From IMG/VR virus record IMGVR_UViG_3300017917_003960, positions 1 through 39,205 of that record: DNA of 39,205 nucleotides; one strand, written 5' to 3'. This document shows positions 9,769 to 24,764 of the stretch, in pieces (the stretch's first letter is position 1; each line of letters starts with the position of its first letter). The position numbers and the translations under genes are program-made. Source of the DNA: a virus. The notes beneath the pieces are model-generated. The model did no database searches. It saw nothing but the letters and a program-made list of their open reading frames with translations, and was not told the origin of the DNA.

Positions 9769-9792
9769 CAAATCAAATAAACTTGACCCATA

Positions 9793-10374: not shown

Positions 10375-10645
10375 AGAAATTGAAAAAGAAGTTAGTGGAT
10401 TCTTGATGAAGAATCACAATGAACTTGGTTTAGGTGAATTTGATTTTATCTACAACGAAGAAGTTATGGAACACGTTCACAATATGTGTGTGAGTATTTT
10501 GTGTACCAAATATGGTGTTGGTTACCCTGGTGGAGGTTTTGTTCAGGCTGTTGTCAACAACGACTTGATGGGATCTTTTGGTCGGGCGGATCACATCAAT
10601 AAAAAGTACATTGGTCTATATGTAAAACTTTTATACAACTACTAA
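10361..10645 (+). CDS. Small conserved-type phage protein
   Basis: A 94-residue protein with a helical N-terminal half and a central GVGYPGGGFVQAVVNNDLMG segment that looks conserved-type. No enzyme motif is visible. Its start overlaps the preceding gene by 14 nt and its stop codon shares a base with the next ATG (TAATG), indicating translational coupling. Confidence 0.75.
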   Translation: MKTVEEIEKEVSGFLMKNHNELGLGEFDFIYNEEVMEHVHNMCVSILCTKYGVGYPGGGFVQAVVNNDLMGSFGRADHINKKYIGLYVKLLYNY

Positions 10646-10863
10646 TGAAAGTCTATAACGTAATTGCATACCTTCACGGTGATGTGAATCAACACTCCTA
10701 TCCTGTGGGTGTTTTTGGTACACAAATGATTGCTGAAATGGTTGCCCATGAAGAATCACTTGAACGTGGTGGTAAGTATAATATAAAAGTTTACGAAATG
10801 TCTTTTGATGAAACTTATTATTCATTTGATCCAATTGTAGTTTACGAAACCGAATCAAAATAA
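10645..10863 (+). CDS. Small hypothetical protein
   Basis: A 72-residue protein, MKVYNVIAYLHGDVNQHSY..., with alternating beta-like segments and no recognised domain. The start is coupled to the previous stop by TAATG. Its stop codon TAA overlaps the first bases of the RNase P RNA gene, so the two must be cut apart or made from different transcripts. Confidence 0.7.
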   Translation: MKVYNVIAYLHGDVNQHSYPVGVFGTQMIAEMVAHEESLERGGKYNIKVYEMSFDETYYSFDPIVVYETESK

Positions 10864-11126
10864 TCAACAAAATGGTGTCGCTCTAAGGAGAGGAAACTCA
10901 GGACATCTCAGCTTAAGGTGGTAGGTATAAGGCAACAAATTTATAATGATTAGTTATAAGTCCTGATCCTTATATCGGTTGAACCACCGAGGATGCAACC
11001 CAAAACAGTCCATGACGGTGAGCTGGTCGGACAAGGTGGGGGCCAATAGACTAATGACACTATCATCAAAACTTGCATTTTTTACAAGTTTGGATGTTAC
11101 AGAATCCTGGTTATACTTTGTTGATT
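10862..11126 (+). ncRNA. rnpB: RNase P RNA (phage-encoded, reduced)
   Basis: The catalytic RNA that removes 5' leaders from pre-tRNAs. Conserved blocks appear in the right order: GAGGAAACTC (10890-10899, CR I), ACAGTCC...ACGGTGA (from 11005), GGACAAGG (11029-11036), GCCAATAG (11042-11049), TAGACTAATGAC (11047-11058) and ACAGAA (11099-11104, CR V). Core helix P4 pairs CAGGA (10899-10903) with TCCTG (11105-11109). Terminal helix P1 is a 10-bp match, AATCAACAAA with TTTGTTGATT. At 265 nt it is well below the usual 350-400 nt, so peripheral helices are reduced; an extra hairpin ACTTG/CAAGT sits before CR V. It ends 4 nt before tRNA-Arg. I could not check secondary structure by covariance. Confidence 0.88.
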
Positions 11127-11130
11127 GAAC

Positions 11131-11202
11131 GCCCCCTTAGGCTAATGGATAAACCACTTCACTACGGATGAAGTTTTGGGAGTTCGAATCTCTCAGGGGG
11201 TA
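11131..11202 (+). tRNA. tRNA-Arg(ACG)
   Basis: Acceptor GCCCCCT/AGGGGGT, anticodon stem CTTCA/TGAAG with loop CTACGGA (ACG, needing A34 deamination to read CGN fully), T-stem GGGAG/CTCTC. It starts 4 nt after the RNase P RNA. Confidence 0.94.
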
Positions 11203-11212
11203 CAAAATAATA

Positions 11213-11244
11213 TTTGGTAGTTATAAATTTTTGTAGTATCTTTG
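11213..11244 (+). promoter_or_regulatory. Host-like promoter TTTGG-19-TATCTTTG
   Basis: TTTGG at 11213-11217 and TATCTTTG at 11237-11244 with 19-nt spacing. The leader to the ATG at 11265 is about 15 nt. Confidence 0.75.
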
Positions 11245-11264
11245 AAGTATCAAAACGAAAAAAC

Positions 11265-11507
11265 ATGTACACAGTAGATAAAGAAAAAGAACAAGGTGCT
11301 TTAGTTCATACCGTTGAGACTCGTGAGTACCACCTGAAAACTCAAGAAGGTCTTGAATTCACCGTACGAATTGAAGATTGTTGGGATTGGACAAATTACT
11401 TTACCGATCTGACTGAAGATGGTACCGCAGTTGACACAATGCGTCAAGTGTGGGACAACGAACCACTCTACGACTTCTTGATGGAAGTTGATTGGGATCA
11501 AGAATAG
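11265..11507 (+). CDS. Small acidic protein (early-type)
   Basis: An 80-residue acidic protein, MYTVDKEKEQGALVHTVET..., with an EFTVRIEDCWDW segment and an acidic C-terminus. No family is recognised. The start is set by the promoter directly upstream, which covers a longer in-frame extension to 11214. It stands alone between a tRNA and the promoter of the next tRNA. Confidence 0.7.
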   Translation: MYTVDKEKEQGALVHTVETREYHLKTQEGLEFTVRIEDCWDWTNYFTDLTEDGTAVDTMRQVWDNEPLYDFLMEVDWDQE

Positions 11508-11508
11508 A

Positions 11509-11539
11509 TTTGGAAATAAAATATATTTTCATATATTTG
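11509..11539 (+). promoter_or_regulatory. Host-like promoter abutting initiator tRNA
   Basis: TTTGG (11509-11513) and TATATTTG (11532-11539) lie just before tRNA-fMet at 11546. The predicted start would be within a few bases of the mature 5' end, so very little leader is left for RNase P to remove. Confidence 0.75.
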
Positions 11540-11545
11540 TAGTAT

Positions 11546-11618
11546 AGCGGGGTAGAGCAGAGGTTAGCTTACAAGGCTCATAACCTTGGGGTCGGGGGTT
11601 CGAATCCCTCCCCCGCAA
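11546..11618 (+). tRNA. Initiator tRNA-fMet(CAU)
   Basis: Anticodon loop CTCATAA (CAU). Initiator marks are the unpaired first position (A1 facing A72), the D-arm AGAGCAG...AGCT and the GGGGTCGGGGGTTCGAATCC body. Only two of the three classic anticodon-stem G-C pairs are present. The sequence after the discriminator A is CT, so CCA is not encoded. Confidence 0.88.
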
Positions 11619-11647
11619 CTAGTGGATCCTTCAGTTGAAGGAAACCA

Positions 11648-11686
11648 ATCCAAATACGTCCCACAAGATTGGAAACGTATTTGGAT
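11648..11686 (+). repeat. Perfect 12-bp hairpin between tRNAs
   Basis: ATCCAAATACGT (11648-11659) and ACGTATTTGGAT (11675-11686) are exact inverted repeats with a 15-nt loop. CCAATC/GATTGG could form an alternative pairing across one arm. A smaller hairpin CCTTCA/TGAAGG precedes it. It may guide processing between tRNA-fMet and tRNA-Gly. Confidence 0.6.
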
Positions 11687-11688
11687 TT

Positions 11689-11761
11689 GCGAAAGTAGCT
11701 CAGTTGGTAGAGCGTCTGCTTGCCAAGCAGAAGGCCGGGGGTTCGAATCCCCTCTTTCGCT
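11689..11761 (+). tRNA. tRNA-Gly(GCC)
   Basis: Acceptor GCGAAAG/CTTTCGC, anticodon stem TCTGC/GCAGA with loop TTGCCAA (GCC), discriminator T. Confidence 0.95.
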
Positions 11762-11766
11762 CAAAG

Positions 11767-11839
11767 AGTCGTGTAGCTCAGTGGTAGAGCAGTCCCTTTT
11801 TGGGATGTGACGCGATAGGTTCAATTCCTGCCACGACTC
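11767..11839 (+). tRNA. Aberrant tRNA-like gene with T5 anticodon loop
   Basis: Acceptor AGTCGTG/CACGACT and D-arm GCTC-AGTGGTA-GAGC are good. The anticodon arm GTCCC-TTTTT-GGGAT is 15 nt, two shorter than normal. If the closing C-G pair opened, the loop would be CTTTTTG and could offer UUU (Lys), but with an unusual U at position 37. The T-stem has an A-C mismatch at its base and the T-loop is TTCAATT. A normal tRNA-Lys exists at 4.7 kb, so this one is either a diverged duplicate or a non-standard RNA. Confidence 0.6.
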
Positions 11840-11848
11840 TTTATTTTT

Positions 11849-11925
11849 GGTGCGGTAGTTCAGTTGGTCAGAATACAGGCCTGTCACGCCTGGGGTCGCG
11901 GGTTCGAGCCCCGTCCGCACCGCCA
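11849..11925 (+). tRNA. tRNA-Asp(GUC)
   Basis: Acceptor GGTGCGG/CCGCACC, anticodon stem CAGGC/GCCTG with loop CTGTCAC (GUC), discriminator G. The 3' CCA is encoded, unlike most tRNAs in this window. Confidence 0.95.
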
Positions 11926-11946
11926 AAATAAATAAAATCAAAAGTC

Positions 11947-12171
11947 ATGAAAGCAGTTTTAGAGTTTAATTTACCCGAAGATGATCACGAGTTCGAAATG
12001 GCAACAAGTGGTTCTAAGTTCCACTCTGTATTGTGGGATATGGATCAGTATCTTCGTGCTAAGATCAAGTACGCACCTGATGATATGAGTGATGATACTT
12101 TACAAGCTTTTGAACAATGTCGTAGTCAACTACACGAATTCATGGGTAGTTATAACGTTTCATTTGACTAA
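11947..12171 (+). CDS. Small conserved-type phage protein (MKAxLEFxLPE type)
   Basis: A 74-residue protein, MKAVLEFNLPEDDHEFEMA..., followed by SKFHSVLWDMDQYLRAKIKY. I recognise this as a common type of small phage protein (ExxLxLPE start, acidic helix, WxxDxxLRxxxK) with unknown function. It sits between tRNA-Asp and tRNA-Pro and may be read from their transcript. Confidence 0.75.
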   Translation: MKAVLEFNLPEDDHEFEMATSGSKFHSVLWDMDQYLRAKIKYAPDDMSDDTLQAFEQCRSQLHEFMGSYNVSFD

Positions 12172-12201
12172 AGAGAAATCTATAGTATAATTTAAACTCA
12201 T

Positions 12202-12274
12202 AGGGATGTAGCGCAGATGGTAGCGCACCTGGTTTGGGACCAGGGGGTCGCAGGTTCGAGCCCTGTCATCCCTA
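12202..12274 (+). tRNA. tRNA-Pro(UGG)
   Basis: Acceptor AGGGATG/CATCCCT, anticodon stem CCTGG/CCAGG with loop TTTGGGA (UGG), T-stem GCAGG/CCTGT, discriminator A. Confidence 0.94.
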
Positions 12275-12293
12275 CAACTTTTCTAAGTTTGTA

Positions 12294-12896
12294 ATGTCTA
12301 ATCTGAAGTTTGTACACATTCCTAAAACAGGGGGAACCTCAATTGAAAATGCCGCCAAAGAACTCGGTATAAATTGGGGTAAGTACGAAAGACAAAACAA
12401 ATATCTAATCCACGGAATAAATAAATGGCACACACCCCAACGTATTGAGGGTATTGTTTTCTGTGTTGTTAGAAATCCATATGATAGAATCTTATCAAAT
12501 TTTCGTCACGTACATCCTGTCAACCAATATCACGTAGATAAACTCAACGAGTGGATCCCACAGATTTTATCACAGGCCAAAGACAATCCGTATCTAAGAG
12601 ACGCTCATTTCTTACCTCAATCTGAATTTGCCCAACATTGTGATATTCACCTTTTGTATAATGATTTACAAAGAGAGTTGGATTGGGTTTGTGAACTTCA
12701 TGGTGTACCAAACATGGTTTTGCCACATCATTACTGAGGACCTGAACAGGATGTCAAACGAGAAGGTAGAGAATACTATAAATTTGTGATTGAAGATATT
12801 ACTTCAGAAAACCAAAAACTTATCAAGGAATTCTATGAAAAGGATTTTGAATTATATGAAAAGGTTTTCCAAGAATGGTTGAAAAGACACGTTTGA
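12294..12896 (+). pseudogene. Sulfotransferase gene split by in-frame TGA
   Basis: The ATG at 12294 opens a sulfotransferase: KFVHIPKTGGTSIENA (residues about 4-19) is the phosphosulfate-binding loop, and FCVVRNPYDRILSNF (about 60-74) is the 3'-phosphate motif. A TGA at 12735-12737 stops it after residue 147. The same frame then continues with sense codons to TGA 12894-12896. That extension (REYYKFVIED..., then EFYEKDFELYEKVFQEW) is the expected closing region of the family. The simplest view is a nonsense mutation or sequencing error; readthrough is less likely because UGA is a normal stop elsewhere here. The truncated product lacks the last 53 codons. Confidence 0.7.
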
Positions 12897-12931
12897 CACC
12901 AATCAATAATCTATTATATTTTAAATAAAAA

Positions 12932-13114
12932 ATGCCGTACGTAGTATTCAAAGAAGGAAACCTGTTAGGTAAACAAATGACCATTTTGGTAAACGATAGT
13001 GAAGGAATTCCTATGGAGTTTGATACATTTGAGGGTGCACAGAAAATCGCCACACTCTTTGAAACCAACTCCACCCAAGGAAACAAATATTATGTAAGAG
13101 AGATCAAGTCATGA
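12932..13114 (+). CDS. Small hypothetical protein
   Basis: A 60-residue protein (MPYVVFKEGNLLGKQ...) with alternating beta strands and one helix (FEGAQKIATLFE). No family is recognised. It overlaps the next gene by 4 nt (ATGA), starting a run of four tightly packed small genes. Confidence 0.65.
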   Translation: MPYVVFKEGNLLGKQMTILVNDSEGIPMEFDTFEGAQKIATLFETNSTQGNKYYVREIKS

Positions 13115-13302
13115 ACATAGATTTGTCAAACCAAAAGTATAATAAATTCAAGGGTACATCTCCTGAGGGTTTTGTTTTGGTTCCATACGAGATGTTGGAG
13201 GAACTCAAAAATTTTGAAACTTGGGTTGAATTCAAGAACTCTGATCTTGGATGGATGGAGAGAAAATCTGCGGAAATTTATTCAACAAGAAATCAAGAAT
13301 GA
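13111..13302 (+). CDS. Small hypothetical protein
   Basis: A 63-residue protein with a central VPYEMLEELKNFETWVEF helix and a basic, polar tail. No function can be assigned. Both ends overlap neighbours by 4 nt, which supports it as a true gene in a coupled operon. Confidence 0.6.
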   Translation: MNIDLSNQKYNKFKGTSPEGFVLVPYEMLEELKNFETWVEFKNSDLGWMERKSAEIYSTRNQE

Positions 13303-13454
13303 ACTCAAAACCGACTTGTGTAATTTGTGGTAAGAAAGCCGTCCATAAAATAACGCCAGGTTATGAGGAAGGTTTTATGTACTCTTGTGATGATGAGTTT
13401 TGTAAACACTCAATCAAGATTCAGTTACAAGGGGCGATCAAAAATCAAAATTGA
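13299..13454 (+). CDS. Zinc-ribbon microprotein
   Basis: A 51-residue protein. TCVICGKKA provides a C-x-x-C pair near residue 7-10, and MYSCDDEFCKHS provides a second Cys pair (C-x4-C) near 30-35, so a four-Cys zinc site is likely. Such phage microproteins often bind nucleic acid or host proteins; the target is unknown. The start overlaps the previous stop by 4 nt (ATGA). Confidence 0.65.
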   Translation: MNSKPTCVICGKKAVHKITPGYEEGFMYSCDDEFCKHSIKIQLQGAIKNQN

Positions 13455-13455
13455 A

Positions 13456-13686
13456 ATGAAACGTAAGATCAAGGAACTTGATTTACATGGAGTTCCACAC
13501 TCGGAGGTTGAAATGTTTTTGGAGAACTTCTTTTTTGTAGGAAACATCGCTCAGGGTACCGTCATCACAGGAAATTCAAAAGAAATGAAGAATATTGTTT
13601 TGAGTTGGTTAGATCAAAATGATTTCTATTATTATGTTCCCACGGGTAATTTGGGACGTATTGAAGTTCAGGATAATCTTTTGTAA
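13456..13686 (+). CDS. Smr-domain protein
   Basis: A 76-residue protein that is essentially a single Smr (small MutS-related) domain: ELDLHGVPHSEVEMFLENFF at residues 7-26 gives the DLHG motif and first helix, and GTVITGNSKEMKNIV (about 35-50) is the strand and turn corresponding to the usual H-G-x-G region, here T-G-N-S. Smr domains are DNA- or RNA-nicking nucleases, some acting on stalled ribosomes. Loss of the His in the second motif could weaken activity. ATG 13456 follows the previous stop by 1 nt. Confidence 0.7.
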   Translation: MKRKIKELDLHGVPHSEVEMFLENFFFVGNIAQGTVITGNSKEMKNIVLSWLDQNDFYYYVPTGNLGRIEVQDNLL

Positions 13687-13693
13687 AAAAGTA

Positions 13694-13724
13694 TTTGACA
13701 GAATATATATTTTATGTATATTTG
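13694..13724 (+). promoter_or_regulatory. Host-like promoter TTTGACA-16-TATATTTG
   Basis: TTTGACA at 13694-13700 and TATATTTG at 13717-13724. The predicted start is about 6-12 nt before tRNA-Thr. Confidence 0.8.
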
Positions 13725-13735
13725 TATACTCAAAG

Positions 13736-13808
13736 GCTTGAGTAATTCAGTTGGTAGAATGGCTGATTTGTAATCAGCTCGTCGGGGGTTCGAGTCCCTC
13801 CTCAAGCT
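13736..13808 (+). tRNA. tRNA-Thr(UGU)
   Basis: Acceptor GCTTGAG/CTCAAGC, D-arm ATTC/GAAT, anticodon stem GCTGA/TCAGC with loop TTTGTAA (UGU), discriminator T. Confidence 0.94.
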
Positions 13809-13832
13809 CAAAATTTATAAACATCATTTTAA

Positions 13833-13961
13833 ATGAGTAAATTTGATTGGCGACACGCAGACCTTGAAGGTGATGAAAAACCTAAAGGTCGTAATGTCAA
13901 AAAAGAAATGAAACAACCTAAGTTGACAAATAAAAAAAATAAAGGGAAGAACAAAGAGTAA
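13833..13961 (+). CDS. Small basic protein
   Basis: A 42-codon ORF, MSKFDWRHADLEGDEKPKG..., with a very basic C-terminal half (Lys/Asn-rich). It may bind nucleic acid, but no family is known. The stop codon overlaps the next ATG (TAATG), so it is probably translated together with that gene. Confidence 0.6.
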   Translation: MSKFDWRHADLEGDEKPKGRNVKKEMKQPKLTNKKNKGKNKE

Positions 13962-14149
13962 TGGAAACTCACCCAACTGATAAGAATTTGGATAATCTGA
14001 AAGCTATGCTGATGATGACAGATGAGTTGGGTGCCCTGAAAGAAGAGTTGTCAACTGAAATCACACTTGATGAACGAATACCTGAGAACAATTCTGTGTT
14101 CAATTGTCCATGGGACAATCAACACGGAGATGTTACCTATTTCCGCTAA
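13961..14149 (+). CDS. Small acidic hypothetical protein
   Basis: A 62-residue acidic protein with an N-terminal helix (NLDNLKAMLMMTDELGALKEEL) and a polar C-terminus. No family is recognised. It is coupled to the preceding basic microprotein by TAATG; the opposite charges of the pair may be meaningful. Confidence 0.55.
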   Translation: METHPTDKNLDNLKAMLMMTDELGALKEELSTEITLDERIPENNSVFNCPWDNQHGDVTYFR

Positions 14150-14156
14150 GAAATTC

Positions 14157-14232
14157 AGACGGATAGCTCAGGGGTGAGAGCAGGATGCTTATACCATCAA
14201 GGTCGTGGGTTCGATTCCCATTCCGTCTACCA
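14157..14232 (+). tRNA. tRNA-Ile(UAU)
   Basis: Acceptor AGACGGA/TCCGTCT, anticodon loop CTTATAC (UAU) on a stem with one G-A mismatch at its base, T-stem GTGGG/CCCAT, discriminator A and encoded CCA. UAU reads AUA, a job usually done in bacteria by lysidine-modified tRNA-Ile2, which is also present here. Confidence 0.85.
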
Positions 14233-14240
14233 ATAAGTAA

Positions 14241-14272
14241 TTTTGATAATTAACAAATTTTTTGTATCTTTG
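14241..14272 (+). promoter_or_regulatory. Host-like promoter 4 nt from ATG
   Basis: TTTTG at 14241-14245 and TATCTTTG at 14265-14272. Only TCCC separates the -7 element from the ATG at 14277, so a leaderless mRNA is predicted. Confidence 0.75.
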
Positions 14273-14276
14273 TCCC

Positions 14277-14849
14277 ATGGAACACAAGAAACTTTCTTTT
14301 TGGGGAAAACTTAAACTTTTTTGGAAGCATGAATATCGTTATTACCCACGAAACTTCGTCCGTGGCGTTAGAAACCTAATCAAATGGGGTCCGGTAATTT
14401 GGAAGGACCGTGATTGGGATGACACTTTTTTGTTCGAGATTATCAAATTCAAAATCTCTAAGATGTCGGAATCTCACGGTAAAATATTTCCTCACATGGG
14501 GTCGGAGAGAAACGTCGAAATTATGAAGACGGTTGTTCGATTGATTGAGAAATTTCAATCAGAGGAGTATCTACATGAGTATTTTACCTATGTTGATGAT
14601 GAATATACATTCGTAAAAATCGAAGGGACGGACTATTTTGAGGTAAAAACGAAAAATCTTCGTGATGACTTGGATCTATATTTTGCAAAGTATCCCTCCC
14701 TAAAAAGACGGGCTATCAATCACAAAATCTACAAAGAAAATCCAAGTTCAGTAAGTTTGGCGATGGCTATGGGATTTGTGCAGCACGAACGAGCAAAACG
14801 ACTTATCTTTGACCTACTGAACCGTCATGTAGACAAGTGGTGGGAATGA
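14277..14849 (+). CDS. Conserved-type phage protein (HEYRYYPRNF..NLIKW type)
   Basis: A 190-residue protein. The N-terminal stretch FWKHEYRYYPRNFVRGVRNLIKWGPVIWKDRDWDD, quoted here only through its key residues HE..YPRNF, NLIKW and WKDRDWD, is a pattern I recall from many unrelated large phages, where its function is unknown. The C-terminal half is helical, ending in a conserved-looking RAKRLIFDLLNRHVDKWWE. No signal or membrane segment is seen. The start is set by the promoter 4 nt upstream. Confidence 0.75.
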   Translation: MEHKKLSFWGKLKLFWKHEYRYYPRNFVRGVRNLIKWGPVIWKDRDWDDTFLFEIIKFKISKMSESHGKIFPHMGSERNVEIMKTVVRLIEKFQSEEYLHEYFTYVDDEYTFVKIEGTDYFEVKTKNLRDDLDLYFAKYPSLKRRAINHKIYKENPSSVSLAMAMGFVQHERAKRLIFDLLNRHVDKWWE

Positions 14850-14858
14850 AATAAAAAA

Positions 14859-14931
14859 GGGCCCATAGCTCAGCGGTAAGAGCAGTTGACTCATAATCAA
14901 TTGGTCGGGGGTTCAAATCCCTCTGGGCCCA
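14859..14931 (+). tRNA. tRNA-Ile2(CAU), probably lysidine-modified
   Basis: Acceptor GGGCCCA/TGGGCCC, anticodon stem GTTGA/TCAAT with loop CTCATAA. The GACTCATAATC core and the GGTCG variable region resemble bacterial tRNA-Ile(CAU), whose C34 is changed to lysidine by TilS to read AUA. A second elongator Met is the alternative. Confidence 0.8.
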
Positions 14932-14945
14932 CAAAACATTTGGAA

Positions 14946-14953
14946 TATTTATA
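14946..14953 (+). promoter_or_regulatory. Putative late promoter TATTTATA
   Basis: Exact octamer, 4 nt (AATT) before the ATG of the PspC gene. Confidence 0.65.
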
Positions 14954-14957
14954 AATT

Positions 14958-15155
14958 ATGAAAGAAGAAACAAAAATGTACCGTCCCAAAGGTGATCGTG
15001 TGGTTGGTGGGGTGTGTAGTGGTATTGCGTATGACATGAATGTAGATCCACTTATTTTTCGTGTCATAGCTTTTTGCTTGATTTTTTCACCTGTACCTAT
15101 AATTTTGATTTATATTCTTCTTTGGCTTTTGATTCCAGGAGAAAAAGACGAATAA
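14958..15155 (+). CDS. PspC-domain membrane protein
   Basis: A 65-residue protein covering one PspC domain: MYRPKGDRVVGGVCSGIAYDMNVDP carries the R.....GGVC.GIA....+DP signature, followed by one long hydrophobic segment (about residues 35-58) and an acidic tail. PspC takes part in the phage-shock envelope-stress response by sensing inner-membrane damage with PspB in some bacteria. A phage copy made late could protect or manipulate the membrane before lysis. It has the TATTTATA motif 4 nt upstream. Confidence 0.85.
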   Translation: MKEETKMYRPKGDRVVGGVCSGIAYDMNVDPLIFRVIAFCLIFSPVPIILIYILLWLLIPGEKDE

Positions 15156-15163
15156 TCTACCAA

Positions 15164-15236
15164 GCGGAAGTAGCTCAGTTGGTAGAGCATCAGCCTTCCA
15201 AGCTGAGGGTCGCGAGTTCGAATCTCGTTTTCCGCT
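15164..15236 (+). tRNA. tRNA-Gly(UCC)
   Basis: Acceptor GCGGAAG/TTTCCGC, anticodon stem TCAGC/GCTGA with loop CTTCCAA (UCC), discriminator T. It is the last tRNA of the window. Confidence 0.94.
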
Positions 15237-15242
15237 CCAATT

Positions 15243-17416: not shown

Positions 17417-17423
17417 AATAAAA

Positions 17424-17452
17424 AACCCCTCCCGAAAGAGGGGTTCTTTTTT
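17424..17452. terminator. Bidirectional intrinsic terminator
   Basis: Stem AACCCCTC/GAGGGGTT with loop CCGAAA, a T-run on the plus-strand side and an A-run (T on the minus strand) on the other. It can end the 99-residue gene on the plus strand and the tmRNA on the minus strand. Confidence 0.9.
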
Positions 17453-17863
17453 TGGTGGAGGTGGCGGGAATCGAACCCGCGTCTTGCTCAGTTTACCCAT
17501 AAAGGACTACATGCTTAGGTCAGGGTTTTTCACACCCTCCGAACTATTTGGTTTCTATTTTGCCATCGTCACCAACAACTGTGGGGTGTTCACTCAAATC
17601 GGTAGAACACCAAACATGACCTCCATTCCTTTTAAGGTAGAAACCACACCGTAGGGACTTCTGTTTCTAGGTTACATGTCCACCGACCCATTGTTGCTGA
17701 AGCCTTAGGCTACAGTAACTTCCTCAGCTTGGATAAGACCCAAAGCCTCGAGTGTTGCGAAAGTTTCGCCGTTTGATTTTTGCCCCCGTAGATTAAAGTG
17801 ATAGGAAACTTCTCACTGCATGCCCCGTATGATTAACCCTGCCAATCAATACCGGTCACCCCC
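17453..17863 (-). ncRNA. ssrA: tmRNA (phage-encoded, atypical tag)
   Basis: A 411-nt minus-strand tmRNA. The tRNA-like domain has acceptor GGGGGTG/CACCTCC, discriminator A and encoded CCA, with T-arm GCGGG-TTCGATT-CCCGC. It rescues stalled ribosomes by adding a tag and ending translation. The likely tag frame runs 17776 to 17705: it aligns SNGETFA with the ANDENYA start of the E. coli tag, but then continues to 23 residues and ends EEVTVA before TAA, not ALAA. The resume codon (UCA) is inferred from this alignment. SmpB is not in the window and is presumably the host's. Confidence 0.92.
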
Positions 17864-17881
17864 ATAATTCAAAGAACACTA

Positions 17882-17893
17882 CAAATATAAATA
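17882..17893 (-). promoter_or_regulatory. Composite promoter for tmRNA (minus strand)
   Basis: On the minus strand the sequence reads TATTTATATTTG, so a late octamer TATTTATA (17886-17893) overlaps a host-like TATATTTG (17882-17889). It lies 18 nt before the tmRNA 5' end. Either or both could drive the tmRNA, giving expression through the infection. Confidence 0.6.
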
Positions 17894-17913
17894 CTTTTTT
17901 TTGAATGACAAAC

Positions 17914-17921
17914 TATTTATA
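17914..17921 (+). promoter_or_regulatory. Putative late promoter TATTTATA
   Basis: Exact octamer 14 nt before the GTG start at 17936, divergent from the tmRNA promoter. Confidence 0.65.
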
Positions 17922-17935
17922 TAGTAAAAATTTGT

Positions 17936-19033
17936 GTGAAAAGGGTTATACGGTTATCTGAATTAGATTTAGAAAATATTGTAAGACGAGTAATTTCGGA
18001 ACAGAATGGTTTTGAGGTTATCAAAGGTACTACGTCTTCAGAACCAATCAGAGGTAATGCGTTAAGTAATTACGGGTTGCCTGTTAACGAAAAAAACTCA
18101 AATAGTGTTTGGGAGATTGTTGGTTGGGGAGATTCTATTTTACCTACTTTCACTAAAACCAAAAATTTATCATTGTTCAAACCTGTTGAAAGGGGAAATG
18201 AACCACAAGATTTCATTGAATTTTATGTCTATAAAACAACTAAAGACGGTGATTATAGAAAATTGAGATTGGATGAAAAGGGAACCCTAAAGGCTAACAT
18301 TTTCTATAAGGAAAATAATGTTTTGTGGAAGGTCTTGAAAGTTAGAGGATCGGGTAACGGTTTATTGGCTTTGGGACGAGCACTCAAGACGGATTCGACA
18401 CCGAATTTTCCAAATCAAATTATTATTACGATGGGTTCTGACACTCGTGAAAGTGGTATGTTGAATTGGAATCCGAAAAATATTAATTCAATACAGACGG
18501 GATTGAATACAGTTCTCAGACTAATTGCCGCGTCCATTCTGACTAAATCTAATGTTAAGAGTCAGGATCCTATTTTTAATAAATACGTTGGTCTATCCAA
18601 TCAGGACATTTCCGAAGAGATTGGTAACGTAATTAAAAGTTTGGATAATAAATTCTCAAATGGATCGTACGACAGGTCAAAATTGGGGGAAATTAACGTG
18701 ACACCGATAGTTAGTTCATTGGAATCTCTTCCAAAAATTTCTTTAAATGATTTGAAGAAAGATGAGAATTATTTTCAAAGTGTTTATGGAAAAAAGATGG
18801 ACCCGTTTTTTCAGTTTGTGGTAACTGAATATAAAAAACGTATAGGTACATTTCTCAAAGATGTTTCACCTGATAACTACACTCAACTCATGTCGTCAGT
18901 GGATCCAAAGGGTGTTATGTCGATCGGAAATTCAATCATCAAACATTTATCAGGTACCAAATATGGTCAGATGACCCCAACAACAAGTGCCACACGAACC
19001 ACCACGAGAGGTGAGTATGAACTAGGTAAATAA
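17936..19033 (+). CDS. Late protein with capsid-targeting-like N-terminus
   Basis: A 365-residue protein starting at GTG. The first 21 residues, with IRLSELDLENIVRRVISE, form an amphipathic helix ending I-S-E, which fits the [I/L]-x-E cleavage rule of the T4 gp21 protease and recalls the T4 capsid-targeting sequence. The rest is unrecognised, mixed alpha/beta, with no membrane segment and a Thr-rich tail (TPTTSATRTTTRG). By analogy it may be packaged in the head, trimmed by the prohead protease and injected. This is an inference; N-terminal helices of this sort may also serve assembly. Confidence 0.6.
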   Translation: MKRVIRLSELDLENIVRRVISEQNGFEVIKGTTSSEPIRGNALSNYGLPVNEKNSNSVWEIVGWGDSILPTFTKTKNLSLFKPVERGNEPQDFIEFYVYKTTKDGDYRKLRLDEKGTLKANIFYKENNVLWKVLKVRGSGNGLLALGRALKTDSTPNFPNQIIITMGSDTRESGMLNWNPKNINSIQTGLNTVLRLIAASILTKSNVKSQDPIFNKYVGLSNQDISEEIGNVIKSLDNKFSNGSYDRSKLGEINVTPIVSSLESLPKISLNDLKKDENYFQSVYGKKMDPFFQFVVTEYKKRIGTFLKDVSPDNYTQLMSSVDPKGVMSIGNSIIKHLSGTKYGQMTPTTSATRTTTRGEYELGK

Positions 19034-19051
19034 GGGATTGCAAAACCTATC

Positions 19052-19294
19052 TTATTTCAGGTTTTCGTAGTTGTCATATGAGTAGAAGTACTCGGCTTGG
19101 CCTTCATTATTCAATACTACAACAGTGTCGTGGACTACCCTCAATGTGTCATTAATCCAAATTGGATTACTTTGTGTGGTATCAACTTCCGTTGACTTTG
19201 ACTCAACAGAATCGTTTTGTTCACCACAAGAGAATAGAGTCAGGAGTGGAAATACGATCAAAAAGTTTTTCATGATGTTTTTAGTTCTTTTCAT
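19052..19294 (-). CDS. Phage lipoprotein
   Basis: An 80-residue protein with a type II signal peptide: basic start (MKRTKNIMKN), hydrophobic FLIVFPLLTLFS and lipobox LFSC followed by GEQND. The mature part is about 60 polar residues, ending in a Tyr/Asn-rich tail. It would be lipidated and placed in the envelope. A host-like TATATTTG lies 4 nt before the first ATG, so it is likely expressed early, which fits a superinfection-exclusion lipoprotein such as T5 Llp; no target is shown. A second ATG seven codons in (MKNFL) is an alternative start. Confidence 0.75.
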   Translation of the reverse strand: MKRTKNIMKNFLIVFPLLTLFSCGEQNDSVESKSTEVDTTQSNPIWINDTLRVVHDTVVVLNNEGQAEYFYSYDNYENLK

Positions 19295-19298
19295 ATTT

Positions 19299-19306
19299 CA
19301 AATATA
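19299..19306 (-). promoter_or_regulatory. Host-like -7 element for lipoprotein gene
   Basis: Minus-strand TATATTTG, 4 nt (AAAT) before the ATG, preceded by T-rich sequence with TTG. A leaderless or near-leaderless transcript is predicted. Confidence 0.65.
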
Positions 19307-19331
19307 CAACAAAAAATTGAATTCTTCGTGG

Positions 19332-19339
19332 TATTTATA
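19332..19339 (+). promoter_or_regulatory. Putative late promoter TATTTATA
   Basis: Exact octamer 6 nt before the ATG at 19346. It sets the start there instead of at an in-frame GTG at 19328. Confidence 0.65.
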
Positions 19340-19345
19340 AAAAAT

Positions 19346-20395
19346 ATGAAACTATCTAAGTTTTTACTTGAGGACGATGAAAGACCTAACGGTAATGTGG
19401 AAGCCATTAAGGATTATTTGGATGGTAAAATATCTGCCGAAGATATTATTGATGAAATCCCTGAGATTATTGAAGTAAAAGGTAGGGGAGCTCTTTTGGA
19501 GTTTGACGAATATTGGGATTTATTTGATTTGGATGACAATACTAGATGGGTAGTAAATGCGGTCACTTCGAACAGGTATGCTCATGACTATTTCATTGAT
19601 TACGACTCAATGAACACTGATTGGGAAGAAGGATGGGGTTTTAATTGGTTCACGACTCCTCAAAAGGAAAGGTTATTGAATTTGATGTCCAACATGATAC
19701 CTGAAATAAAAAAAGGTGAATGTGATTTGGAGGGTGAATCACCTTGCTCAAAAAAAATTACAACTTTTTTGGATAATGAGTTTGGTCGGTATACCTCAGA
19801 CATTGTTGATAGTGTGACTGAGGAAAGAAACCAAAAAATAGCGGAAGAAATAGAACAAGAATTATTCAAAGATTATTCAATCCCACTTCCAAGAAAGGTC
19901 TTACAGATGGTTCCAGTAAAAACAAGAGAAACTTTTTTGGTGAGTTTGGCACAATTGGCCAATTTCATTGAAACCTATGGAGTTGAAGTTAAAGATCAGA
20001 GTATTACTGATATTATTAAAGATGTAATTTATAAAGAAGGTCATCATCCAAACTATGAAGATGGTTTTTGGGACTATGGTCAAGACTGGGATGTGGAACC
20101 TGTTCGTAGGTATATTGATAGACTTTTGGACGCGGTTGAGGAAGACTTTGGAGGTAGGGATTTTACACCCGACCAAGAATATTATAAGTTATTACAAGAT
20201 TTTGGGGTAACGCCAGGTTTGTGGAAAAAATTTCCTGAGGGAGGTCAATATGATTCATTTATGATTGAAAAGTTTGACAACGAAACTGAAAAAGTGGATG
20301 TTAGGGTCACAAGATCAGGTGATTGGAAAAGTGAAAGATTTAGATTACCAATTGACGATGTCAGAAATTTGTTGACAAATTATACGTTATTTTGA
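19346..20395 (+). CDS. Acidic late protein, possible internal head protein
   Basis: A 349-residue, acidic, aromatic-rich protein. It begins MKLSKFLLEDD: nine residues ending L-L-E, similar in size and ending to the T4 internal-protein targeting peptide MKTYQEFIAE, which gp21 removes. The body contains acidic and Trp-rich segments (WEEGWGFNWF, DGFWDYGQDWD) and helices, without a recognised domain. It may be co-packaged and injected. The start follows the late octamer by 6 nt. Confidence 0.6.
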   Translation: MKLSKFLLEDDERPNGNVEAIKDYLDGKISAEDIIDEIPEIIEVKGRGALLEFDEYWDLFDLDDNTRWVVNAVTSNRYAHDYFIDYDSMNTDWEEGWGFNWFTTPQKERLLNLMSNMIPEIKKGECDLEGESPCSKKITTFLDNEFGRYTSDIVDSVTEERNQKIAEEIEQELFKDYSIPLPRKVLQMVPVKTRETFLVSLAQLANFIETYGVEVKDQSITDIIKDVIYKEGHHPNYEDGFWDYGQDWDVEPVRRYIDRLLDAVEEDFGGRDFTPDQEYYKLLQDFGVTPGLWKKFPEGGQYDSFMIEKFDNETEKVDVRVTRSGDWKSERFRLPIDDVRNLLTNYTLF

Positions 20396-20397
20396 TA

Positions 20398-20425
20398 TCA
20401 ACAAATATTTTCGTATCTTTGTTGA
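20398..20425 (+). promoter_or_regulatory. Host-like promoter with operator-like inverted repeat
   Basis: Perfect 8-bp inverted repeat TCAACAAA (20398-20405) / TTTGTTGA (20418-20425). The right arm overlaps the -7 element TATCTTTG (20414-20421). A partial third copy (TATCAACA) lies at 20431-20438. It may be a repressor site controlling the peptidase operon. Confidence 0.55.
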
Positions 20426-20437
20426 AAACTTATCAAC

Positions 20438-20491
20438 ATGAAAACGTATCTATTCTTTCAAATTATTGTAAATCAATCGGAAAATGAATGA
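20438..20491 (+). CDS. 17-residue leader ORF
   Basis: An ATG-initiated ORF, MKTYLFFQIIVNQSENE, just downstream of the promoter. Its TGA lies within the first codons of the peptidase gene (ATGAATGA), a layout for translational coupling. It could be a leader that helps ribosomes load, or chance. Confidence 0.3.
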   Translation: MKTYLFFQIIVNQSENE

Positions 20492-21317
20492 TTTTGAATT
20501 TTTGAAAGAACTGCTATCAGTTCGTACTGCGACTTATAATGAAGAACTTATGGTCCAATACATTTGTGATTGGTTGGACAAAGAGGGTATCCCTTATGTT
20601 GTTGATGAGATGATGAATGTTTATGCTACCAAGACCACGCAAGGGTATGAGGATAAACTTTACCCTTGTATGGTTGCACATACTGATACGGTTCACCATT
20701 TTGAAGATGAGATTATCGTTCATGAGGAAATATTACCAAATCGTCAGAAACAAGGAAAGTTGTCTCTGAAAGGGTACGATCCAAAAGGTAAACCTGTTGG
20801 TATTGGTGGTGATGATAAGTGTGGTGTATATGGTGCTTTGGTTTCACTCCGTGACCTACCCCACCTCAAAGCGGCATTCTTCGTTTCAGAAGAAACTGGA
20901 TGTTGGGGATCTCGTAAGGCTAGTCCAGAGTTTTTCTCTGATGTTGCTTACGCAATTCAATTGGATGCCCCAAGTAATTACATGGTGACTGAAGTCTGTT
21001 CAGGTATTAGGTTATTTGATCGTAATTCGGAATTTTTCCGAATTGCTGATGAAGTTTTGACAGAAAAGTTTGCTCATCATGAATTTCAGATCCATCCTTA
21101 CACGGATGTTTCACAATTGAAAATGAAATTTGATTTTTCCTGTATAAATTTTTCTTGTGGTTATTATAATTATCATACAATGCACGAGTATGTTGTTGTG
21201 GAGGATCTTCAAAATGCCATCCATACTGCACACGAGATGATAAACAGATTAGGATATACAAAACACGAATATGAACGTCAAGGATACCATCGGAGTTTAC
21301 CCTGGGGCTCTGTCTGA
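20484..21317 (+). CDS. M20/M28-type metallopeptidase or deacylase
   Basis: A 277-residue protein with the di-zinc hydrolase signature: H66 and D68 (MVAHTDT), D110/D111 (IGGDDKCG), the catalytic pair E136-E137 (VSEETGCWGS) and D161 (QLDAP), with a final His in TMHEYV. This resembles PepT-like M20 exopeptidases, without the full dimerisation domain. Substrates are short peptides or acylated amino acids; the phage role is unknown, possibly supplying amino acids. It overlaps the next gene by 47 nt. Confidence 0.8.
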   Translation: MNDFEFLKELLSVRTATYNEELMVQYICDWLDKEGIPYVVDEMMNVYATKTTQGYEDKLYPCMVAHTDTVHHFEDEIIVHEEILPNRQKQGKLSLKGYDPKGKPVGIGGDDKCGVYGALVSLRDLPHLKAAFFVSEETGCWGSRKASPEFFSDVAYAIQLDAPSNYMVTEVCSGIRLFDRNSEFFRIADEVLTEKFAHHEFQIHPYTDVSQLKMKFDFSCINFSCGYYNYHTMHEYVVVEDLQNAIHTAHEMINRLGYTKHEYERQGYHRSLPWGSV

Positions 21318-21861
21318 GGAGTTATGTGATCGTCTCATAGAGGCTTTTCATCAGTACGAAGGTCACCACTACCAAGGAGTAACTGCAAGTGGTTTAGATA
21401 AGAGATTTAAGGACACCACCGATTTTGATTTGATGAAAGTCCCTGAACTTGAGGATTTGGTTGATCAGGTGGTAGAGGCTGCAAACGAAAAGATTGATTT
21501 GTACGTCCGTAGATACAGAACCACCGATGAGTTCAACACCCACGAATATCTATTCGGTAATGGTACTTACTACCCTGTTTGGCAATTACAGAGATACGAA
21601 AAAGGTGTTGGACACTTCAAATCTTTCCATACCGAGGGTGAATACAGTGAGTTCTACAACAGACTGTTCGCAGTTATGTTCTATCTGAATGATGTTGAAG
21701 AAGGTGGTGAGACGGAATTCCTACATCAGAGTTTGATGATCAAACCAACGAAGGGAACCTTTTTAGTTTGGCCGGCACCTTGGCCTTATGTTCACAGAGG
21801 TCATGTACCTTTGTCCAACGATAAATACATCTTAACAACTTGGTTATTGAGAGAAGATTAA
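21271..21861 (+). CDS. 2OG-Fe(II) oxygenase (prolyl-4-hydroxylase-like)
   Basis: A 196-residue protein. FHTEGE supplies H120 and E122 in place of the usual HxD, VHRGH supplies the distal iron ligand H175, and K185 sits ten residues later to bind 2-oxoglutarate. GGETEF (residues 145-150) is typical of prolyl-4-hydroxylase-like folds. It would hydroxylate an unknown protein or nucleic-acid target. The 47-nt overlap with the peptidase gene is unusually long for this phage but both frames are well supported. A terminator follows. Confidence 0.85.
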   Translation: MNVKDTIGVYPGALSEELCDRLIEAFHQYEGHHYQGVTASGLDKRFKDTTDFDLMKVPELEDLVDQVVEAANEKIDLYVRRYRTTDEFNTHEYLFGNGTYYPVWQLQRYEKGVGHFKSFHTEGEYSEFYNRLFAVMFYLNDVEEGGETEFLHQSLMIKPTKGTFLVWPAPWPYVHRGHVPLSNDKYILTTWLLRED

Positions 21862-21866
21862 TTATT

Positions 21867-21890
21867 GAGGTCGTAAGACCTCTTTTTTTT
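21867..21890 (+). terminator. Intrinsic terminator
   Basis: Stem GAGGTC/GACCTC with a GTAA tetraloop followed by eight T, 5 nt after the oxygenase stop. Confidence 0.92.
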
Positions 21891-21909
21891 GCCCAAATTT
21901 TTTTTGCCC

Positions 21910-22083
21910 ATGAGTGAGAACGATATAATAAAAAGAATTGTTGAAATAGAATACGAACTATTTCTGTCCATCAGGAACGGACATAAAGCAACCGTTGGTG
22001 ACCAATACCATGATAAAAGGGTTGAGGCTGCACTTTTACGTTGTTTGCTTTATGGTGAGGATTCAAAGTATTGTAAAAAATAA
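21910..22083 (+). CDS. Small hypothetical protein
   Basis: A 57-residue helical protein, MSENDIIKRIVEIEYELFL..., with two Cys in the last half. No family is recognised. Translation from the upstream codon at 21889 would start within the terminator T-run, so ATG 21910 is preferred. No clear promoter is seen; readthrough from the upstream unit is likely. Confidence 0.55.
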   Translation: MSENDIIKRIVEIEYELFLSIRNGHKATVGDQYHDKRVEAALLRCLLYGEDSKYCKK

Positions 22084-22110
22084 AAGGGGGTCAATTGACC
22101 CCCTTTCTTT
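22083..22110. terminator. Bidirectional intrinsic terminator
   Basis: AAAGGGGGTCAATTGACCCCCTTT is a perfect palindrome with T-rich sequence on each side. It lies between the 57-residue gene and the convergent clpC-like gene and can end both. Confidence 0.9.
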
Positions 22111-24104
22111 TACTTGATAACCACTTTCTCATCTTCCACGGAGAGGGTGTAGGTTCCACCTTCTTTTACTGTGTCAGATAGGACGGATTCGGAAACCAAG
22201 TCCTCCACTTCGTCTTGAATTGCTCGTTTGATAGGTCGGGCACCGTACACTTCATCAAACCCTACTTTTGAGATGTGTTCTACGAGTTTATCATCAAAAC
22301 TGAAGTTTAGTTTTAGATCACCAAGACGCTTCATCAACTTGTTGAGTTCAATGGATACAATCTTTTTCAGGGATTCTTGATCCAAAGAATTGAAGATGAT
22401 GGTTTCGTCAATACGGTTGAGGAATTCAGGTGAGAAGTAATTCTTCATTTCCTTCTTCAGGATCTCCTTCTTCTGTTCCTCCGTTGAGTATGAAGAACCA
22501 CCAAAACCGATACCAGTACCAAAGTCTTGAAGTTTCTTCACACCAATGTTGGAGGTCATGATAATGAGGGTGTTTTTGAAGTTGATCTTACGACCCAAAG
22601 AGTCAGTAAGATGACCTTCATCCAACATTTGAAGAAGGGTATGAAAGATCTCCTTATTTGCCTTTTCAACCTCGTCAAAAAGAACAACCGAGTATGGTTT
22701 GTTCTTCACCTGTTCGGTGAGTTGGCCACCCTCATCATAACCTACGTATCCCGGAGGCGCTCCAATCAAACGAGATACGGTGTGTTTTTCTTGGTATTCA
22801 GACATATCAACTCGGATCAAGTTGTCAGCTGAACCGAAGATCTGCTTGGCGAGTTGTTTTGCCAGGTGAGTCTTACCAACACCAGTTGAACCCAAGAAGA
22901 TAAATGAACCAATTGGTTTGTTTGGATCCTTGATACCAAGACGGTTACGACGCATTGCCCGAGCGATTTTACTAACCGCATCGTCCTGACCAATAACCTC
23001 TTGTTTGAGAGATTCTTCCAAACCAACAAGTGCAGCCTTGTCATCAAGAGAGAGTTTGTTCACAGGGATTTTGGTCATGGATGCAACCACTGTGAGAACC
23101 AACTCAGGATCAATTGGTTTTTTGTTTTCGGCTTGTTCCTTTTCAAACTTAGCCTTTTCCTTCTCCAAACGTTCCAAGAGTTTCTTCTCCTTATCACGAA
23201 TCTCAGCCGCTTGTTCGTAGTCTTGTTTCTTTACCACGTCCAACTTCTGTTGTTTGAGTTCAGCTGCTTTAGTCTTAAGGATCTCAATTGACTCGGGCAT
23301 CTTCACCTCCACTTGACTACGAGCTCCGACTTCATCCAAGATGTCAAACGCTTTATCCGGAAACTCACGATCGGTGATGTAACGATCGGCAAGATTGACA
23401 CACATCTCCAAGATCTCTTCGGTGTAGAGAACCTTGTGGAAATCTTCATAACGTGATTTGGATTGTTGAAGGATCAGTAAGGTTTCCTCCTTGGAAGGAG
23501 AATCAATACTTACCTTTTGGAATCGTCGCTCAAGTGCTCCGTCTTTTTCAAAATTGGTACGGTACTCATCAAGAGTGGTTGCACCAATACATTGGATTTC
23601 ACCACGGGCGAGAGCTGGTTTGAAGATGTTGGATGCGTCCATAGAACCAGATGCGTTACCAGCACCTACGATCGTGTGGATTTCGTCAATAAAGACAATG
23701 ATGTCTGGATTCTCAGACAGTTCCTCAATGATAACCTTCATACGTTCTTCAAATTGTCCACGGTACTTTGTACCAGCAACAATTGAGGTAAGGTCCAAAA
23801 GAACGATTCGTTTATCACGAAGATTTCGGGGACAATCGCCTTGTACGATTTTGTTGGCTAGCCCCTCCACGATAGCGGTCTTACCACTACCAGGTTCCCC
23901 CACGATAATGGGGTTATTCTTTTTCCTACGGGATAGGATTTGAGCAATACGATGGATTTCCATCTCACGTCCGATGACGGGATCAAGTTTACCCTCAGCG
24001 GCCATCTTGTTTAGGTCTTTGGAGAAGTTATCCAAGACTGGAGTACCACTTTGCTTTTGACGGGATTTTGCTCCCTTTTCGTTATCGTCCATAGATTCAA
24101 TCAT
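22110..24104 (-). CDS. clpC: ClpC-type AAA+ unfoldase lacking the N-domain
   Basis: A 664-residue Hsp100 protein with two AAA+ modules: Walker A GEPGSGKT (69-76) and later GSTGVGKT, Walker B VFIDE and VLFDE, and sensor regions. A UVR-like helix pair (about 280-312, DYEQAAEIRDKEKK) forms the ClpC M-domain. IGF in GTGIGFGG lies where the ClpP-docking loop is expected, so it could feed a host ClpP. The two N-terminal Clp repeats that bind adaptors (about 150 residues in cellular ClpC) are absent; the N-terminus is only about 25 polar residues. It likely unfolds phage or host substrates, possibly tmRNA-tagged ones. Confidence 0.92.
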   Translation of the reverse strand: MIESMDDNEKGAKSRQKQSGTPVLDNFSKDLNKMAAEGKLDPVIGREMEIHRIAQILSRRKKNNPIIVGEPGSGKTAIVEGLANKIVQGDCPRNLRDKRIVLLDLTSIVAGTKYRGQFEERMKVIIEELSENPDIIVFIDEIHTIVGAGNASGSMDASNIFKPALARGEIQCIGATTLDEYRTNFEKDGALERRFQKVSIDSPSKEETLLILQQSKSRYEDFHKVLYTEEILEMCVNLADRYITDREFPDKAFDILDEVGARSQVEVKMPESIEILKTKAAELKQQKLDVVKKQDYEQAAEIRDKEKKLLERLEKEKAKFEKEQAENKKPIDPELVLTVVASMTKIPVNKLSLDDKAALVGLEESLKQEVIGQDDAVSKIARAMRRNRLGIKDPNKPIGSFIFLGSTGVGKTHLAKQLAKQIFGSADNLIRVDMSEYQEKHTVSRLIGAPPGYVGYDEGGQLTEQVKNKPYSVVLFDEVEKANKEIFHTLLQMLDEGHLTDSLGRKINFKNTLIIMTSNIGVKKLQDFGTGIGFGGSSYSTEEQKKEILKKEMKNYFSPEFLNRIDETIIFNSLDQESLKKIVSIELNKLMKRLGDLKLNFSFDDKLVEHISKVGFDEVYGARPIKRAIQDEVEDLVSESVLSDTVKEGGTYTLSVEDEKVVIK

Positions 24105-24130
24105 GTTATTACTGTTTTTGATTTACACCA

Positions 24131-24160
24131 CAAATATACAATTATTTTTCCAAATACCAA
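24131..24160 (-). promoter_or_regulatory. Host-like promoter for clpC (minus strand)
   Basis: Minus-strand TTGG (24157-24160), 18 nt, TATATTTG (24131-24138). The leader to the ATG is about 26 nt. It suggests early or middle expression. Confidence 0.7.
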
Positions 24161-24222
24161 TATTGACAATATGACAGGTGATAATATTTTTGATTTGACA
24201 TTTTGTCAGGATATACGGTGAT

Positions 24223-24253
24223 TTTGGTATTGGCACATTATTTACTAATATTG
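24223..24253 (+). promoter_or_regulatory. Host-like promoter for UVR-motif gene
   Basis: TTTGG at 24223-24227 and TAATATTG at 24246-24253 (one mismatch to TAnnTTTG), spaced by 18 nt. It is divergent from the clpC promoter; the 190-nt region between the two genes is A/T-rich. Confidence 0.5.
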
Positions 24254-24293
24254 GGACAAAGATAACAAATAAAAATCTAAAAAAGAAAAAAAT

Positions 24294-24764
24294 ATGTTTG
24301 GAAGAGGAGATTCTTTTGATGACTTGTTCAATGAACTAAACAATATGTTTGGTCGTAATAATCCGTTCGGTGGGCGATTTGGTATTCACGGAAAAAATAA
24401 CGTAGAAAAAGGAAAAGATGAAAATGGTGAATGGAACAAAGAAACCTTCACATCTGATGATGGTAAAATTGTCATTACTAGTTTTGTTCGTACCTCAGGA
24501 TTTGATGACGACATGCTGACCAGTATGTTCAAAAACAAAAAACAAAAAGATAGTGGTGTTGAAGGACTCAAGAAAGAACTTCAACGAGCAATTGAAAATG
24601 AAGATTACGAATTGGCAATTGCCATCCGTGATAAGATCAAACAACGAGAAAACTCTCAAGAAACAATTGACAAACTTGAAGCGGAACTCAAACAAGTAAT
24701 TTCAGATCACAACTTTGAAAGAGCGATTGAGATCCGTGAAGAACTTAAAAAACTGAAGATGTAA
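24294..24764 (+). CDS. UVR-motif protein, possible Clp adaptor
   Basis: A 156-residue protein. The C-terminal half has two UVR (UvrB/UvrC-type) motifs in tandem: LKKELQRAIENEDYELAIAI... (about 90-115) and LEAELKQVISDHNFERAIEI... (about 128-153). UVR motifs mediate binding in UvrB/UvrC, McsA and ClpC. The N-terminal half is Gly/Asn/Phe-rich (MFGRGDSFDDLFNELNNMFG) and then beta-like; McsA-type zinc Cys are absent. It is divergent from the N-domain-less clpC, suggesting a partner that pairs with the ClpC M-domain. That role is inferred. Confidence 0.7.
   Translation: MFGRGDSFDDLFNELNNMFGRNNPFGGRFGIHGKNNVEKGKDENGEWNKETFTSDDGKIVITSFVRTSGFDDDMLTSMFKNKKQKDSGVEGLKKELQRAIENEDYELAIAIRDKIKQRENSQETIDKLEAELKQVISDHNFERAIEIREELKKLKM

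Follow-up and report, generated by a model that had tools for sequence, protein, structure and literature searches.

A conserved phage locus linking a tmRNA gene with a long tag to an N-domain-less ClpC-like unfoldase

Phage tmRNAs have been known for years without a clear purpose, and the question of what such an RNA does for a virus is raised by a 39.2-kb virus fragment (IMG/VR record IMGVR_UViG_3300017917_003960) that encodes a T4-type terminase, a portal and a prohead protease. Within this fragment, analysed over its whole length of 39,205 nucleotides and referred to here as the window, a tmRNA gene lies near genes for an M20-family peptidase, a ClpC-like unfoldase and a small protein with UVR motifs. 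Across dozens of related contigs the viral tmRNA is tied to this dedicated unfoldase, mostly to a ClpP and to a distinct tag, which makes its purpose testable. These viruses carry their own version of the ribosome-rescue and tagging system, with a tag unlike that of the host, near protease genes, which suggests that they have taken over this pathway on their own terms.

The host of this phage group is very probably a member of the Bacteroidota, because the cellular ClpCs listed as nearest to the phage ClpC (55-59% identity) come from Bacteroidota wherever the record title names a phylum, and because the promoter of the tmRNA gene follows the pattern TTTG-N19-TAnnTTTG, known as the Bacteroidota consensus. 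Flavobacterium phage terminases, at 27% identity, are among the closest to the terminase of the window in annotated records. The window also carries 26 tRNA genes, a near-complete set, in 15 kb (26-15239). Two sulfotransferase-like genes lie in this tRNA region, one (12234-12737) with a match to the galactose-3-O-sulfotransferase family and the other (7766-8371) judged by eye and without a PHROG match. The product of 17936-19033 begins with MKRVIRLSELDLENIVRRVISE, a leader of the type MKKVIRLTESDLxKIVKRVINE that also opens many proteins in relatives (L020, L068 and L070) and may be a common signal for targeting or assembly in this phage group.

The tmRNA gene and its tag

The one-piece tmRNA gene (ssrA; 17453-17863, minus strand) matched the Rfam covariance model RF00023 from end to end (model positions 1-374, tRNA-like domain included), scoring 88.9 bits against a cut-off of 47 (E 2.1e-33). 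ARAGORN, run on the window, did not call the tmRNA at 17863-17453, so that a negative ARAGORN result carries little weight for phages of this kind. The acceptor stem (GGG...CUCC-ACCA) combines an encoded CCA end with G3.U70, the alanine identity pair, and the U70 pattern was seen in 55 of 59 related tmRNAs. Upstream on the same strand (17869-17912), a predicted promoter consists of TTTG (17909-17912), a 19-nucleotide spacer and TATATTTG (17882-17889), followed by the boxA-like motif GTTCTTTGA (17869-17877). Of 60 phage tmRNA upstream regions, 31 contain the promoter pattern and 50 the boxA-like motif, against 0.7% and 0.9% of random stretches, respectively. The boxA-like motif is not phage-specific: it also occurs in host tmRNA leaders, in 3 of 29 under a strict definition and in more under a relaxed one. 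Downstream, an intrinsic terminator hairpin with a T run (17420-17449, minus strand; -18.4 kcal/mol, z -3.9) closes the gene. Read from its sequence, the tmRNA gene is thus intact, with a predicted promoter and terminator of its own, and encodes a conserved phage-type tag.

In relatives, and not in the window, a structured leader RNA of about 80 nucleotides lies between promoter and tmRNA (for example L007:14312-14400, L017:15403-15490 and L078:15497-15583), with the sequence AAATCACrGGTGGCTCCCTTAATAGTTAAGGCTGACCTTAAGCATC...TATACAGGGGGCGAAAGTGATTT. It was found in 55 viral contigs; the tmRNA follows 25-29 nucleotides further on in 37 of the 51 that could be tested, and in 11 of the remaining 14 a tRNA gene lies no more than about 300 nucleotides away. 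Alignment folding gave compensatory changes in 6 of 24 pairs, and an Rfam search with the leader RNA from relatives returned no family.

The tag reading frame, internal to the tmRNA (17705-17770, minus strand), opens with the resume codon GGC in the context AAAC and runs for 21 codons, GETFATLEALGLIQAEEVTVA, to a TAA stop. It is conserved in 57 related tmRNAs as the pattern G[NDE][VTI][LFI]xK[ML]xx[ILV]GLx...VxVA, 21-22 residues long and with GL invariant. The C-terminal residue is alanine in nearly all of the 57 loci, and an Ala-Ala end, which is what E. coli ClpX uses, occurs in 5 of 37 distinct 21-residue tags and in none of the 22-residue tags. Over the same 57 loci pN/pS was 0.53-0.59 in the tag frame and 0.82-1.85 in the other two; of the three frames, the tag frame alone has its substitutions mainly at synonymous positions, so the peptide itself matters. 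The Bacteroidota host tags that we read were nine residues long (GENNYALAA, GESNYALAA, GETRYAMAA and similar), and the phage tag differs sharply from these YALAA- or YAMAA-ending peptides. Long tags do occur elsewhere, that of Chlamydia trachomatis having 22 residues. When the phage proteins in these loci were compared with the tag, none was similar outside the tmRNA itself. For ClpAP to engage GFP, the substrate must end in some 20 unstructured residues (PMC12493166), and a 21-residue tag would by itself be expected to suffice.

The unfoldase and its linkage to the tmRNA

The unfoldase gene (22110-24104, minus strand) encodes 664 amino acids that comprise, by Pfam, two AAA+ modules, a lid, a D2-small domain and one UVR match (residues 279-309) that marks the M-domain (about 23124-23285). 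Its Walker motifs are kept. In an alignment of 81 phage ClpCs the ClpP-docking loop reads GIGF in the window protein (residues 531-534, about 22497-22514) and IGF or VGF variants in relatives. No match to Clp_N (PF02861) was found in the window and 24 related contigs, nor did these 25 contigs encode a stand-alone Clp_N protein that might act in trans. We therefore call the protein ClpC-like and N-less rather than a full ClpC, as the N-terminal Clp_N double repeat is absent. This absence is not an assembly artefact, because the best 80 clpC relatives either start at the same place (D1) or are cut by the contig end, and the host-type ClpCs examined are longer, 17 of 17 having about 160-190 extra N-terminal residues. 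One relative with a 226-kb contig (G080) provides a natural contrast to the N-less clade, its ClpC of 827 amino acids having an N-domain (L443:1320-3800). The distant huge phages LR745206 and LR756502 encode an N-less ClpC together with a ClpP homologue, and a search of both found no recognisable tmRNA; the tmRNA-clpC module thus belongs to one clade and not to all N-less ClpCs.

We tested co-occurrence from three starting points, namely clpC, a tmRNA pattern ignorant of clpC, and the UVR protein. Starting from clpC, with counts that rest on the best 80 loci among IMG/VR relatives, an over-threshold tmRNA was present in 36 of the 49 contigs that are whole, in each case 2.0-4.9 kb downstream of clpC and on its strand; a phage-trained tmRNA profile detected the gene in most of the remaining clpC loci with room, L046 being the clear exception, so that almost all clpC loci with room have a tmRNA. 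Starting from the tmRNA, clpC lay upstream in 27 of 33 new loci having at least 5.5 kb, and among the six exceptions one contig, G080, holds its N-domain-bearing clpC elsewhere. Starting from the UVR protein, an N-less clpC was divergently adjacent in 76 of 76 loci with room and a tmRNA was present in 38 of 38 loci with at least 5 kb; the loci behind all of these counts share descent (clpC 68-92% identical), and so the counts are not independent.

Between clpC and the tmRNA, other genes of the window recur in only 1-12 of the best 80 loci, whereas the M20-family peptidase (20484-21317, plus strand; Pfam M20 E 7e-6, PHROG 4191 E 3e-36) is present in 77. Its metal-ligand motifs are kept in the window copy and largely kept in relatives, and it is plausibly the end of the pathway, a candidate peptide-recycling step. 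A terminase gene (67) and a nucleotidyltransferase-like gene (73) are also retained around the best 80 loci. On gene content, clpC and the tmRNA are a real, conserved module among IMG/VR relatives. The genes that drew attention to the locus in a sequence-only reading, a tmRNA with a non-standard tag, a ClpC keeping the IGF loop without the N-domain and a divergent small protein with two UVR motifs, all proved to be what that reading took them for; independent distribution was not seen for clpC and the tmRNA, nor for the UVR protein given clpC.

A phage ClpP is encoded in 15 of the 25 contigs, 18-30 kb downstream of clpC (distances taken from coordinates); 19 contigs are long enough to tell, and four of these have none nearby. 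About 25 kb separate clpP from clpC in G003, a close relative, and the window ends short of the place where clpP would lie. Of 11 phage ClpPs that were aligned, 10 have the complete S-H-D catalytic triad (GMAASMGS or GLAASMGS, MLHQ and RDxW), the L193 protein being a diverged copy (GMCASMGS, MTHM). SmpB is encoded in the contigs of two relatives; in one of them (G019) the gene (L195:1482-1964) is a near neighbour of the phage tmRNA and is read from the other strand. Judging from these inventories, host ClpP and SmpB must serve where a phage lacks its own. The earlier idea that such a module redirects host ClpP needs revision, because most relatives with enough sequence encode an intact ClpP of their own.

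The divergent slot beside clpC and the M-domain

The UVR protein (24294-24764, plus strand; 156 amino acids) is encoded divergently from clpC and has two Pfam UVR matches (48 bits, E 8e-13) and, in Pfam, nothing beyond them, including no YccV domain. An AlphaFold2 model places an N-terminal helix and a beta-meander ahead of two UVR hairpins at the C-terminus (about 24561-24644 and 24663-24758); it is confident only in the helical UVR part, most of which has a pLDDT of 82-88, against 69 for the whole model. A Foldseek search of the PDB with this model (pLDDT 69) gave nothing below E 0.001, and an INPHARED search with the protein gave no match. A reading of its N-terminal part as a degenerate small heat-shock protein did not hold up in a profile comparison (7% probability) and was dropped. 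The protein contains no cysteine, and McsA-type zinc sites are therefore absent.

In the best 80 clpC loci the divergent slot holds a UVR protein in 38, a small heat-shock protein in 19 and neither in 21, is cut off in 2 and never holds both, so that 42 of these N-less clpCs have no UVR protein beside them. One of the loci counted as neither has DnaK (Hsp70) in the slot (L074:7973-9841), identified by inspection of its N-terminal sequence. On the clpC tree, branches with good support require at least nine gains or losses of the UVR gene. In G080 the UVR protein (L249:1840-2319) is unlinked to the N-domain-bearing ClpC. Tag distance correlated with clpC distance (r 0.50) and showed no association with slot type (UVR, small heat-shock protein or neither) beyond clpC relatedness (permutation p 0.67). 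The UVR protein is thus unlikely to read the tag, whose sequence shows no dependence on which gene fills the slot.

The M-domain offers a different role. A S. aureus ClpC without its N-domain and with the M-domain intact does not degrade GFP-SsrA, and M-domain mutants do (PMC5699869). The phage ClpC keeps the M-domain residues that hold the S. aureus protein inactive: Y/F436, E437 and R443 are kept in 81 of 81 phage ClpCs. With Y/F and R at the equivalent positions in all 81, a ClpC that lacks the N-domain and keeps its M-domain is expected to be latent; N-domain adaptors could not reach it, and it would need something acting on the M-domain. Plant ClpF and ClpC have been suggested to meet through their UVR motifs (PMC7966870), and plant ClpC traps are enriched for UVR proteins (PMC8889267). 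By analogy with these systems, the UVR protein is probably an M-domain-directed activator of ClpC, the role that we prefer, and activation through the M-domain would fit published work better than the UVR protein as a substitute for the N-domain.

We had predicted that ClpCs lacking a UVR neighbour would have lost the repressive M-domain residues; the prediction failed, as these residues are invariant in the 81 phage ClpCs. The UVR protein hence cannot be the sole solution, and, if release of the M-domain is needed, relatives without a UVR protein would use another way.

A proposed pathway, competing readings and known systems

With moderate confidence, we read the locus as a phage-encoded trans-translation and proteolysis module made up of the tmRNA, N-less ClpC, ClpP, M20 peptidase and UVR protein, with a function that we infer from gene content. 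During infection the phage tmRNA, mostly with host SmpB, would rescue ribosomes stalled on broken mRNAs and add the phage tag to the unfinished chains. That tag, which mostly lacks a terminal Ala-Ala, is probably long enough for a two-ring Clp unfoldase to grip it directly, with no adaptor needed, whereupon phage ClpC, with phage or host ClpP, would degrade the tagged chains and the M20 peptidase would recycle the resulting peptides. In keeping with this reading, Leptospira ClpA still binds ClpP and processes an SsrA substrate when its N-domain is missing (PMC12493166). The UVR protein would activate the latent N-less ClpC, its UVR hairpins pairing with the UVR of the M-domain, and in other relatives a small heat-shock protein would take its position. 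More tentatively, the tag and protease may form an orthogonal degron-protease pair, the tag being unused by host ClpXP and used by N-less ClpC-ClpP, with a UVR or small heat-shock activator replacing the adaptor logic of the N-domain; we lean somewhat against this stronger form. If the pair is orthogonal, the virus rewrites the degradation signal of its host, the system reveals how ClpC works without an N-domain, and an independent degron and protease become usable as a tool.

The tmRNA might instead be only a translation aid within a large stable-RNA set, rescuing ribosomes once host mRNA has been destroyed, its tag altered so that tagged phage proteins escape host ClpXP, and ClpC doing other work. 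The 26 tRNA genes of the window and the general lack of a terminal Ala-Ala in the tags are in keeping with such a role, as is the host-maintenance function proposed for the tmRNA of Melnitz-like phages (PMC9004378). A mere escape tag, however, need not keep a 21-residue pattern (GL and a V-x-V-A end) under purifying selection, and clpC and the tmRNA stay together amid variable neighbours; we consider this account unlikely. Quite improbable, in our view, is that ClpC, together with a small heat-shock protein, UVR protein or DnaK, serves virion assembly or heat stress as a chaperone or disaggregase and that the tmRNA is no functional partner: head and packaging genes do lie nearby, and small heat-shock proteins fill the divergent slot in 19 of 80 loci, with DnaK in one more, but the conserved ClpP-docking loop and the ClpP genes in 15 of the 19 informative contigs speak against it.

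Shared descent of one phage lineage could keep these neighbours together without any functional link, as the retention of the terminase and nucleotidyltransferase-like genes around the same loci might indicate. Yet the genes between clpC and the tmRNA turn over while the M20 peptidase and tmRNA stay, and the slot beside clpC switches repeatedly between proteostasis genes, which leaves descent alone a very improbable explanation. Least probable of all, we judge, is the role first proposed for the UVR protein in the sequence-only reading, in which it stands in for the N-domain, recognises the phage tag and passes substrates to ClpC on host ClpP. UVR proteins do bind or co-purify with ClpC (PMC8889267 and PMC7966870) and, where found, always sit beside an N-less clpC given room, but roughly half of the N-less clpCs lack an adjacent UVR gene, that gene has been gained or lost repeatedly, tag sequence is independent of its presence and relatives carry their own ClpP.

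The phage-encoded module that we favour resembles several known systems in part. Complete tmRNA genes are also found in phages of the mycobacteriophage Bxz1 group, Bacillus phage G and Melnitz (PMC4131195 and PMC9004378); that of Melnitz is permuted and two-piece (PMC9004378), whereas the window tmRNA is one-piece, and the passages of both papers drawn on here describe no linked ClpC-UVR-ClpP set and no conserved phage-type tag. Sinorhizobium phage AP-J-162 combines, as here, a tmRNA, six Clp open reading frames, Hsp20 and many tRNAs in one phage, with a host of another phylum, and the corresponding passages of its description (PMC11242549) mention no linked module or loss of the N-domain. The open literature searched yielded phage tmRNAs and phage Clp genes, and neither the linked module nor the tag.

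The UVR protein has in common with McsA, plant ClpF and BFN(DUF151)-UVR proteins a UVR motif of the ClpC M-domain kind. It differs from McsA in having no cysteines and hence no zinc-binding motif, from ClpF and HspQ in lacking the YccV domain, and from host BFN-UVR proteins in lacking DUF151, with only the UVR motif in common; unlike McsA, ClpF and BFN-UVR proteins, it is a tandem UVR joined to a new N-terminal part. As for bacterial trans-translation and Clp proteolysis (tmRNA, SmpB and ClpXP or ClpAP), the phage set has the same kind of elements, with an Ala-type acceptor, a tag and stop, a Clp unfoldase and ClpP. In contrast to the bacterial system, it is phage-encoded, its tag is 21-22 residues long and without YALAA, and its unfoldase is an N-less, ClpC-type protein linked to the tmRNA gene.
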